Below, one piece after another: positions 30,652 through 37,011 of a stretch of DNA of 64,000 bases (position 1 is its first letter; each line of letters begins with the position of its first letter). Under the pieces are notes generated by a model, which was given only the letters and a program-made list of their open reading frames with translations, did not search any database and had not been told where the DNA came from. The position numbers were made by a program, and so were the translations under genes. Source of the DNA: Lentisphaeraceae bacterium (GTDB lineage: Bacteria; Verrucomicrobiota; Lentisphaeria; Lentisphaerales; Lentisphaeraceae); assembly GCA_021232515.1 (NCBI GenBank), contig JAJPOQ010000022.1:1-64000 (forward strand), in the 5' to 3' direction.

Positions 30652-32013
30652 ATGAAGCGCTATTTCTTCACAATGTTATTAATCGCATCACTATCTGCTT
30701 TCGCAGAATTAAGTATTAAAAATGAAAAAGATCGAGTTCTTCTTGAAGATGCAGTGATCTTATCTTCTAAGTTCCTAGCTAAAGATTCCAAAAGTGCTGA
30801 AGGGAATGCTCTCCTAAAGTTTGCATCTTGGTTAGATGCAACTGATAAGCGTATTAAGGCGATGAAGGCTAAAGCTATATTTGGTGATAAAATAGAAGCT
30901 TTATCGGGATCGATTACGACAGATTTATTTATTCGTAAAATACTAAACCGTCAAGATGAATTAAAAAGTAGCACATCTACAAGATTGCTCTACATAGTGG
31001 TGGGAAAATCAATAGCACCATCTAACTCAAAAATGTCAGCTCTTTACAGCGAATTTAGTAACTATGAGCTGAATTTGGATAAGCTTTTAAAAGATGCGCC
31101 TAGGCCTGTGAAAATTGATTTGGTTGCTGAAAAGGCTAAAGCAGAAAGAGAAGCTGTTAAAATAGAAGAAGACAATAAAACTTTAAAAGAGTCTTACAAC
31201 AATGGTGCATCAGCAGAAGATGTCGAGTTAATCCTAGATGGTACAACATTTAAATCGTTTAACTATTCTGAAAGCACAGTTTTAGATGCAATTAATCGTA
31301 TTACTCATAAGCTTTATTGGCGTGGAGTACAGATGAAAATTCAGGGTAACCGAATTAGTTATTCGTCCACAACAAAATCAACCAATGGTGCAGTCTACTA
31401 TCATGGACCACTTCAAATACCTAATTTTGAAGAGTATTCAGTAGAAAATAAAACCGTACGTCAAGTCTTGGATCATATTTCCACAAACATTCGTGTTTTA
31501 TGGAAAGTACAGGATGGCGCCATTGTGTTTTATGATGATGAAGTTCCAGATCCAGAAATACCTGAAGGAGGTTTAGCCTCAAATATGATGAAGGATTTGA
31601 TGAAAGGCAGTTTGAAGGAACTGCTTAAATACCGTGGGAAAACAATTGAGATGAATGGCTTAATTACTGGAATCGGTCGTCATGATTACAAAACGGACTT
31701 TTTAGCTCTAGATGGTGGTAGTGTAAGAATTTACATTAATAAGTCTGATGTTGATGAAAAAATGTACAGAAGACTAAATACTAGCATTGATGATTGGAAA
31801 AAAGAAGGTGGTAATGCGGCCTTAATCAAGAAGTTAAGACAAATGAAGTTAGACGGCGAAGAGATAGATCGCCGTACAGTTGGTAATGCAACAGCTTTTG
31901 TTCAATTTAAAGCTAAAGTAGACGGGATTGACCGTGGTCGCTTAGTTTTCAAAGAAGTTAAGTACATTAAAATTGAAGAAAGTGGTGAGTACTTAATTAA
32001 AAATATGAACTAG
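30652..32013 (+). CDS. Secreted protein with STN-like and OB-fold (tRNA_anti-like) regions
   Basis: 453 residues, signal peptide MKRYFFTMLLIASLSAFA, AGGGAA upstream. A helical N-terminal part (20-190) ends in a charged coiled stretch (KAKAEREAVKIEEDNK). Middle: TVRQVLDHISTNIRVLWKVQDGAIVFYD resembles the secretin/TonB short N-terminal (STN) domain. C-terminal (about 325-450): LLKYRGKTIEMNGLITGIG, and GNATAFVQFKAKVDGIDRGRLVFKEVKYI, resembling the tRNA_anti-like OB fold. I do not recognise the full architecture. It is followed 40 bases later by a soluble ExbD-like protein on the same strand, and it begins a new rightward unit across from ComEC. Confidence 0.6.
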   Translation: MKRYFFTMLLIASLSAFAELSIKNEKDRVLLEDAVILSSKFLAKDSKSAEGNALLKFASWLDATDKRIKAMKAKAIFGDKIEALSGSITTDLFIRKILNRQDELKSSTSTRLLYIVVGKSIAPSNSKMSALYSEFSNYELNLDKLLKDAPRPVKIDLVAEKAKAEREAVKIEEDNKTLKESYNNGASAEDVELILDGTTFKSFNYSESTVLDAINRITHKLYWRGVQMKIQGNRISYSSTTKSTNGAVYYHGPLQIPNFEEYSVENKTVRQVLDHISTNIRVLWKVQDGAIVFYDDEVPDPEIPEGGLASNMMKDLMKGSLKELLKYRGKTIEMNGLITGIGRHDYKTDFLALDGGSVRIYINKSDVDEKMYRRLNTSIDDWKKEGGNAALIKKLRQMKLDGEEIDRRTVGNATAFVQFKAKVDGIDRGRLVFKEVKYIKIEESGEYLIKNMN

Positions 32014-34849: not shown

Positions 34850-34992
34850 ATTTTTTTTACTCCAGATTTTGCGAGACTTTAGCGGCTTTGTAGTAAAGGT
34901 CAATCACGATTGGAATAGAGTCTTTAGTTGTAAAGTTTGCATTTATAATCCCTGAAGAATTAAATTATTATAAGAAATAAGGGGAGGTAGCT

Positions 34993-35160
34993 ATGATTGA
35001 ACTCTTAGCATTGCTGGCTTATTTCGGTGCAATGGTTGTACCTTTGATTGTGATAGTTGTTTTAGAGTATCATGCCAGCGGGATCATAGAAAAACGGCAC
35101 CATATGGCAATTTTAAAATTTATGAAGAAAAATGCCAAACTGGTGATTCATAAAAAATAG
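34993..35160 (+). CDS. 55-residue single-span membrane protein
   Basis: A small gene with GGGGAGG five bases before its ATG, an unusually perfect ribosome-binding site. Residues 4-25 (LLALLAYFGAMVVPLIVIVVL) form one transmembrane helix, followed by EYHASGIIEKRHHMAILKF and a basic tail (MKKNAKLVIHKK). A rho-independent terminator begins 20 bases after its stop, making it a self-contained transcription unit between rsuA-type and alr genes. I recognise no family. Membrane topology with the basic tail inside predicts the C-terminus in the cytoplasm. Confidence 0.8.
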   Translation: MIELLALLAYFGAMVVPLIVIVVLEYHASGIIEKRHHMAILKFMKKNAKLVIHKK

Positions 35161-35179
35161 TCTTTTATTGTTTAAGATT

Positions 35180-35205
35180 AAGTCCTCACATTGAGGACTT
35201 TTTTG
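35180..35205 (+). terminator. Rho-independent terminator after the 55-residue gene
   Basis: Arms AAGTCCTCA (35180-35188) and TGAGGACTT (35192-35200) pair perfectly over 9 bp with a 3-base loop, followed by TTTT and G. The small gene stops at 35160. The alanine racemase gene starts 50 bases later and is in a separate unit. Confidence 0.85.
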
Positions 35206-35255
35206 TTAATAAAGAGTAGTTTAGAGAATAATAAACTTAACTTGATACAATTTTT

Positions 35256-36353
35256 ATGGCTCGCAATATTTTAGAGATAAGGCTTGATCTAATTCAAAAA
35301 AACTTTGAGTTGATTCAGAAGCACGTGAAGCCTCTTTCGCTTATGGCAGTTCTTAAGGCAAACGCCTATGGGCTAGGAGCTACAGAAGTCGGTCAAGCTC
35401 TAAAAGAAGTCGGTTGTTCAAGATTTGGTGTTGCAGATGTAAACGAAGCTTTAGAATTGCAGCACTTAGAAGTTCCATTGCAGATCTTAGGGGATATCAT
35501 TGATTTTGAAATACCTAAACTGGTTTCAGAAGAGTTTATTATACCAGTCACATCTTATGAAAATGCCTTGAAGATCTCTAAAGAAGCAGAAAGCCAGAAT
35601 AAGAAAGCTTCTGTTCATTTTTTGATCGATACAGGCATGGGACGTTTGGGAATGCCGATTGATTTAAGTTTTGAAACAATTCAGCGAGTATCTTCTCTTA
35701 AGAATTTATCTTTTGATGGCATCTACTCACATTTCCCCCATGCTTATGGCGATCGTAGCTTTTCAGAAAAGCAGATCGAAAAATTCATCGACTTACTGAA
35801 TAAACTTAAGAGTCAGAATATTTCCTTTGGTGAAGTTCACTTCGCAAATAGTGACGGTTTGCACAATATCGATGCATCAGTTGAGCAGCCATTTAGTATG
35901 GTGCGTAGCGGCATTAACTTATACGGCTATTATGATTTAGAGGGCACTCATAAGTTTGAACTAAATGAAGTCCTGAGTTTAAAGTCAAAGTTAGTGTCTG
36001 TAAGAGAGTTGCCTCAAGGCGCAACTGTTGGTTATGGTCGAACCTATACCCTCTCAAAACCTATGAAAGTAGGGACCGTTGCCATCGGTTATGCAGATGG
36101 CTTACCGATAGAGTTTTCGAATAAAGGGAGACTTGTTGTAAATGGCGTATCCTGTCCGATCATTGGTCGAGTTTCGATGGATTATACAACTATAGATTTA
36201 TCAAATGTTGATGCTGAAGTTGGTGATGAGGTTTTATGTTTAAGTGAAGCATATGATGTAAATGACTGGGCAAAAGATTCAGGAACGATTAGTTACGATA
36301 TTATTTGTTCATTGGGTTCTCGGGTTAAAAGAGTTTATCTGAATGGCAAATAA
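35256..36353 (+). CDS. alr: Alanine racemase
   Basis: 365 residues, converts L- to D-alanine for peptidoglycan. PLP-binding Lys34 is in LMAVLKANAYGLG; the DTGMGRLG segment follows and the C-terminal domain starts with GYGRTYT (catalytic Tyr near 260) and GYADGLP. Length and motifs match Alr. The ATG at 35256 lacks a strong ribosome-binding site. The stop overlaps the next gene (HAD phosphatase) by 11 bases, suggesting an operon. Confidence 0.95.
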   Translation: MARNILEIRLDLIQKNFELIQKHVKPLSLMAVLKANAYGLGATEVGQALKEVGCSRFGVADVNEALELQHLEVPLQILGDIIDFEIPKLVSEEFIIPVTSYENALKISKEAESQNKKASVHFLIDTGMGRLGMPIDLSFETIQRVSSLKNLSFDGIYSHFPHAYGDRSFSEKQIEKFIDLLNKLKSQNISFGEVHFANSDGLHNIDASVEQPFSMVRSGINLYGYYDLEGTHKFELNEVLSLKSKLVSVRELPQGATVGYGRTYTLSKPMKVGTVAIGYADGLPIEFSNKGRLVVNGVSCPIIGRVSMDYTTIDLSNVDAEVGDEVLCLSEAYDVNDWAKDSGTISYDIICSLGSRVKRVYLNGK

Positions 36354-37011
36354 AATGATCGAATGTGTTATTTTTGATTCGGATGGGACTTTGGTCGATA
36401 GTGAGTTTCTTGGACATCACTGCATGGAGCTTAAGCTTCAAGAGTTAAGTATAGAAGAATCAGCCGAAAGAATGAAAGAAGAGTTTCGTGGTTGGAAGCT
36501 CAATGAACTTTTAAAGGTTATCTCAAAGCGTCATGGAGTTGAGGACTTTTCAGAAGAGTTTATTTTAGATTATCGAAAATTTTTAAATGTGAAGTTTGAA
36601 GAGTCTCTTCAAGCCATTGAAGGCGTGACTGATGCCGTCGCCAAACTAAAGACTAGAGTTAAAATTTGTGTAGCCTCTAGCGGTCCGATGTTTAAGATAA
36701 AGAAGGCAATGAAAGTGACGGGCTTAGCGCCTTATTTTGGCGATGACTTATTTAGCGCTTATGATTTAGGTGTATGGAAGCCAGAGCCGGATTTATTTTT
36801 ACTTGCAGCAGATGAAATGGGCGTGAGTCCCGAGAATTGTATTGTCATCGAAGATAGTGAAGTAGGCGTGACTGCGGGAGTACGTGCTGGGATGAGAGTT
36901 ATTCACTACAATCCAGAGAAGTTCATAAAAGAAGTCGAAGGCGATATTTATGTAATATCGCATATGAATCAACTCATTAAAACTTTAGAAGAACTGGGCT
37001 TAAAGTCTTAA
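36343..37011 (+). CDS. HAD-family phosphatase (beta-phosphoglucomutase/phosphoglycolate phosphatase-like)
   Basis: 222 residues. Motif I is FDSDGTLVDSE (nucleophile Asp, with Ser in place of the common first D of DxD pair), motif II VASSGP, motif III/IV KPEPDLFLLAADEMGVSPENCIVIEDSEVGVTAG. That is subfamily IA HAD, typical of sugar-phosphate or phosphoglycolate phosphatases. The ATG at 36343 is used; the ATG at 36355 is also possible. Overlaps alr by 11 bases and converges on the HldE-like gene with 4 bases overlap. Substrate undetermined. Confidence 0.85.
   Translation: MANKMIECVIFDSDGTLVDSEFLGHHCMELKLQELSIEESAERMKEEFRGWKLNELLKVISKRHGVEDFSEEFILDYRKFLNVKFEESLQAIEGVTDAVAKLKTRVKICVASSGPMFKIKKAMKVTGLAPYFGDDLFSAYDLGVWKPEPDLFLLAADEMGVSPENCIVIEDSEVGVTAGVRAGMRVIHYNPEKFIKEVEGDIYVISHMNQLIKTLEELGLKS

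Follow-up and report, generated by a model that had tools for sequence, protein, structure and literature searches.

The analyzed DNA stretch, called the window below, comprises 64,000 nucleotides. At positions 34993 to 35160 of its forward strand it contains a small open reading frame, designated smORF, which starts with ATG, ends with TAG, and encodes a protein of 55 amino acids (MIELLALLAYFGAMVVPLIVIVVLEYHASGIIEKRHHMAILKFMKKNAKLVIHKK). The assignment as a small membrane protein gene is based on the reading frame itself, on an ortholog in a second species, and on coding-type substitutions between the two. smORF has one copy in its genome. The divergent gene upstream encodes a pseudouridine synthase, and the next gene downstream on the same strand is alr, encoding alanine racemase.

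The smORF product has a single hydrophobic stretch, from about residue 4 to residue 24. The best Kyte-Doolittle mean over 19 residues is 2.74 (starting at residue 6), compared to 2.48 for the ortholog in G001, a "Lentisphaerales bacterium" MAG. Residues 1-24 contain no lysine or arginine, and the tail (residues 25-55) contains eight, together with two aspartate or glutamate and four histidine residues; the tail of the G001 ortholog has ten lysine or arginine residues. Residues 1-24 are predicted to form a membrane helix, which is followed by a basic tail. AlphaFold2, with two sequences only as input, modeled one continuous helix from residue 2 to residue 54 (mean pLDDT 78.7, pTM 0.38), and the confidence dropped along the tail. 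The length below about 60 amino acids and the one hydrophobic helix of membrane-spanning length are the features of a small single-pass membrane protein. A preliminary description had proposed an isolated 55-residue membrane protein with one transmembrane helix and a basic tail, and these features were recovered, with a predicted localization. "Isolated" is also correct if it is taken to mean a unit of one gene, as the gene upstream is divergent, and alr is situated behind a stem-loop. The remark that the gene is too short for routine annotation was overstated, because its 55 codons exceed the length cut of 50 codons that is named in the abstract of PMC7667032.

Translation and Transcription Signals

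The Shine-Dalgarno motif GGGGAGG is located at positions 34981-34987 of the forward strand and is separated from the ATG by five nucleotides (TAGCT). Its duplex with the anti-Shine-Dalgarno sequence has an energy of -12.6 kcal/mol and is the strongest found for 37 usable starts across the 64-kb window, which were hand-picked from the 50 long ORFs and partly verified, a few of them being placed at an alternative ATG that favors a Shine-Dalgarno motif, and one being cut short by the window end. When the longest exact match was counted instead, smORF had 6 nt, and a match of at least 6 nt was found for five of the 50 long ORFs, two of which had 7 nt. Only two ORFs of 40-100 amino acids in the window combine an ATG with a match of at least 6 nt; the second overlaps a long gene, and smORF is the only intergenic one. 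The ribosome site had been called perfect, and the control signals had been ranked among the best in the window. Both statements hold, the first for the motif five bases before the ATG and its duplex energy, the second with the duplex in first place and the exact match being equaled or exceeded by five long ORFs. The G001 ortholog is preceded by AGGAGG (L002 1488-1493), seven bases before its ATG.

In general, the Shine-Dalgarno motifs of most gene starts in the window are weak or absent, and strong motifs are the exception.

A consensus scan revealed a weak candidate promoter on the forward strand, TTTATA-18-TATTAT at positions 34942-34971, with 9 of 12 matching bases. A similar 9/12 match is present in G001 (L002 1439-1468), but such matches are common by chance in this region. 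The spacer between the divergent pseudouridine synthase gene and smORF also contains AGTTGTAAAGTTTG (positions 34926-34939), which has a nearly identical counterpart in G001, AGTTGTAAAATTTG (L002 1428-1441), although the surrounding spacer is otherwise poorly conserved. It is possible that AGTTGTAAAGTTTG is a regulatory site.

The Stem-Loop Downstream of smORF

Downstream of smORF, a stem-loop that resembles an intrinsic terminator extends over positions 35180-35206 of the forward strand, including its T-run. It starts 19 nt past the smORF stop codon and consists of a stem of nine base pairs with a loop of three nucleotides (AAGTCCTCA-CAT-TGAGGACTT, positions 35180-35200), followed by TTTTG. 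The fold of positions 35161-35215 has a z-score of -4.4. The counterpart in G001 (L002 1699-1720) starts 18 nt past the ortholog stop codon, and all nine of its nine pairs are formed.

When the arms of both species were placed side by side, with the gap in the loop, two stem pairs were changed on both sides. In the MAFFT alignment the number of such pairs was zero, because MAFFT had set a one-base gap in the 3' arm. The covariation of the stem comes from two sequences and is supportive, but not strong. The T-run after the G001 stem is weaker (ATTTCC), and, thus, the stem-loop may terminate incompletely in that species. The own 9-bp stem terminator of the preliminary description was verified, i.e., nine pairs with a T-run that are kept in G001 and are terminator-like by sequence.

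Conservation and Selection

G001 is the only other genome of the genus that was searched. It encodes a 59-residue ortholog at C206:136887-137063, which shares 56-57% identity with the smORF product over 53-55 residues (E 2.7e-14). Gene order and orientation are also shared: the genes for ABC-F and the pseudouridine synthase are on the reverse strand, smORF, alr and a HAD hydrolase gene are on the forward strand, and a PfkB/cytidylyltransferase gene is again on the reverse strand.

The substitutions between the two small genes are distributed over codon positions 1, 2 and 3 as 19, 11 and 31, respectively, with a dN of 0.37 and a dS of 1.55 (pN 0.29, pS 0.66). For residues 1-42, the core, dN is 0.23, i.e., tighter than for the whole gene. 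The same substitutions were placed at random 2000 times without creating stop codons. The observed protein identity of 0.56 was reached in none of the 2000 placements, which had a mean of 0.36 (standard deviation 0.04, maximum 0.51). Because of the coding-type substitutions, the result of the random placements and the syntenic ortholog, smORF is judged to be a protein-coding gene under purifying selection between the two species. Its identity to G001 (0.56) is similar to those of alr (0.61) and of the ORF at 30652 (0.60), and the ABC-F gene changes more slowly. The preliminary description had named conservation as one criterion for a real gene, and conservation was found in the form of the syntenic ortholog, the substitution pattern, and the retained Shine-Dalgarno motif and stem-loop.

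The best conserved parts of the protein are the membrane helix, E25, and residues 32-42 (I-E-x-R-H-H-x-A-I-L-K). The 13 C-terminal residues diverge, and the ends differ in length (55 versus 59 amino acids). As only two sequences are known, residues kept by selection and residues kept by ancestry are poorly separable.

Distribution

smORF was present at real significance only in G000 and G001, i.e., in both genomes of the genus and in two of six genomes of the family. Among the 98 relatives searched no genome besides these two had a match below E 0.02, and weak matches in family genomes (E 0.12-0.49), of which those at L049, L050 and L051 were inspected, were judged to be due to chance. In a sample of 387 genomes of the phylum, G000 had the only strong match; G001 was absent from the matches listed and was presumably not drawn. 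Eight further genomes of this sample had matches at E 0.04-0.1, which is fewer than expected by chance from the per-genome E-value. GTDB contigs scanned with the single sequence yielded no match, and with the two-sequence profile only JAKVBD010000004.1, which was taken as the G001 contig C206 itself and not as a third sequence. Within the set of genomes that were searched, smORF is confined to its genus.

No similar protein was found in phages, plasmids and viral contigs (IMG/VR), no family was found among the Pfam and NCBIfam profiles at E values up to 10, and PADLOC yielded no match to the smORF product. A PHROG match (E 0.33) included the hydrophobic part only, and the one PDB match (E 1.4) was to a designed protein; both were regarded as chance. 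No paper on this gene was found by title or abstract start with searches for Lentisphaer small proteins, type I toxin-antitoxin small membrane proteins, and alr.

Neighboring Genes

In none of the three genomes of the sister genus (g3) is alr adjacent to the pseudouridine synthase gene, and no small ORF like smORF was seen upstream of either gene. G002 has a 65-codon GTG frame upstream of alr, which is unrelated to smORF. All three g3 genomes encode a very hydrophobic protein of 107-110 amino acids, convergent to the pseudouridine synthase gene (L039 1169-1492; also in L038 and L040), which has no match in the other three family genomes. It was rejected as a counterpart of smORF, based on its convergent position and the lack of a match in the genus of the window.

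The alr gene has no recognizable Shine-Dalgarno motif, neither in the window (ATG at 35256) nor in G001. In the window the hexamer TACAAT (35246-35251) ends four bases before the alr ATG, and, thus, the alr mRNA could be leaderless; G001 has no obvious counterpart of this hexamer. The HAD hydrolase gene is intact in the window (222 amino acids, 36343-37011), and in G001 (L016 8270-8938) it is split into two ORFs of 102 and 109 amino acids in one frame, indicating an in-frame stop codon in the latter copy. No gene beside smORF is obviously co-transcribed with it, and an informative operon was not found. Because the terminator-like stem follows smORF, its neighbors say little about its function.

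Discussion

The comparison of the two genomes indicates that smORF is a genuine, vertically inherited gene. It is ordinary among lineage-specific genes for small proteins, and its function is not readable from the sequence. The favored interpretation, with a probability of roughly 0.55, is that smORF is a lineage-specific, monocistronic gene whose product spans the inner membrane once (N-out, C-in) and has a putative juxtamembrane helix that docks to a larger membrane partner. The gene would be transcribed alone and translated strongly. The positive-inside rule describes the orientation of membrane proteins, and following this rule the product would be inserted with the N terminus outside and the basic tail in the cytoplasm. 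The hydrophobic helix would be the anchor, and the conserved juxtamembrane helix (E25 and residues 32-42) may make contact with the lipid surface or with a larger partner in the membrane, so that the protein would act as an accessory or regulatory subunit. We infer a single-pass anchor that carries a putative docking helix on the cytoplasmic side. Because E25 and residues 32-42 are the best conserved parts besides the membrane helix, the juxtamembrane helix is probably more important than the 13 C-terminal residues.

KdpF, AcrZ and MgtS are small inner-membrane regulators or subunits with fewer than 60 amino acids, one transmembrane helix and a short charged tail. The smORF product is similar to them in these general features, from which the likeness is drawn, but it has no Pfam or NCBIfam relation and is confined to one genus in the genomes searched.

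A chance ORF with a chance Shine-Dalgarno motif in an AT-rich intergenic region would explain why the frame is short and has neither a family match nor a homolog outside the genus. The syntenic ortholog, the coding-type substitutions (0/2000) and the retained Shine-Dalgarno motif and stem make this explanation practically negligible. It was also considered that smORF could encode the membrane toxin of a type I toxin-antitoxin system, i.e., a hydrophobic peptide with a cationic tail that is silenced by an antisense RNA and permeabilizes the membrane when it is made. According to PMC8309996, type I toxins are commonly shorter than 60 amino acids and hydrophobic, with a transmembrane helix and cationic C-terminal residues. 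The smORF product matches this description in size, transmembrane helix and cationic tail, and therein resembles Fst, BsrG and SprG. Two antisense promoter-like sites with 10 of 12 matching bases each lie inside the ORF (35138-35110 and 35110-35083), but neither has a counterpart in the corresponding alignment columns of G001, and when L002 1200-1900 was scanned, no antisense site was detected within the ORF of that species. In contrast to the named toxins, smORF thus has no conserved antisense promoter, and it occurs as one copy that is inherited vertically beside housekeeping genes. There is no sign of mobility, as seen from the absence of similar proteins from phages, plasmids and viral contigs, and PADLOC likewise gave no match. 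The Shine-Dalgarno motif is open in the local fold (34960-35000), but the folds of the whole transcript gave mixed results. Taken together, a toxin is unlikely.

In a further alternative, smORF would be the leader peptide of an attenuator, and its translation would decide about termination at the stem-loop in front of alr. The stem-loop lies between smORF and alr in both species, alr has no recognizable Shine-Dalgarno motif in either, and a weak match to the Rfam family Phe_leader (35149-35206, over the stem) is mildly in favor, but its score of 28.8 bits is far under the gathering threshold of 55 and was attributed solely to the stem and T-run. In the window the best upstream pairing with the 5' arm of the terminator has -5.8 kcal/mol, and 94% of 300 shuffled sequences were as good or better. 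The respective value for G001 is -11.7 kcal/mol, as good in 9% of the shuffles, which is only suggestive. Attenuators do not need the amino acid conservation that was observed over the transmembrane and juxtamembrane parts, and no alanine run is present near the end of the peptide. Therefore, attenuation of alr is very improbable. It is also highly unlikely that the two proteins are the founding pair of a genus-specific family of membrane regulators or toxin-like peptides, unrelated to the catalogued ones and tied to alr via read-through of the stem-loop.

smORF does not change any general view. It is a further gene for a small membrane protein that is absent from the searched family libraries, and it comes from a marine group that has been little studied. 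It illustrates that a small gene of this kind can be certified by a strong Shine-Dalgarno motif, a terminator and one relative with conserved synteny.
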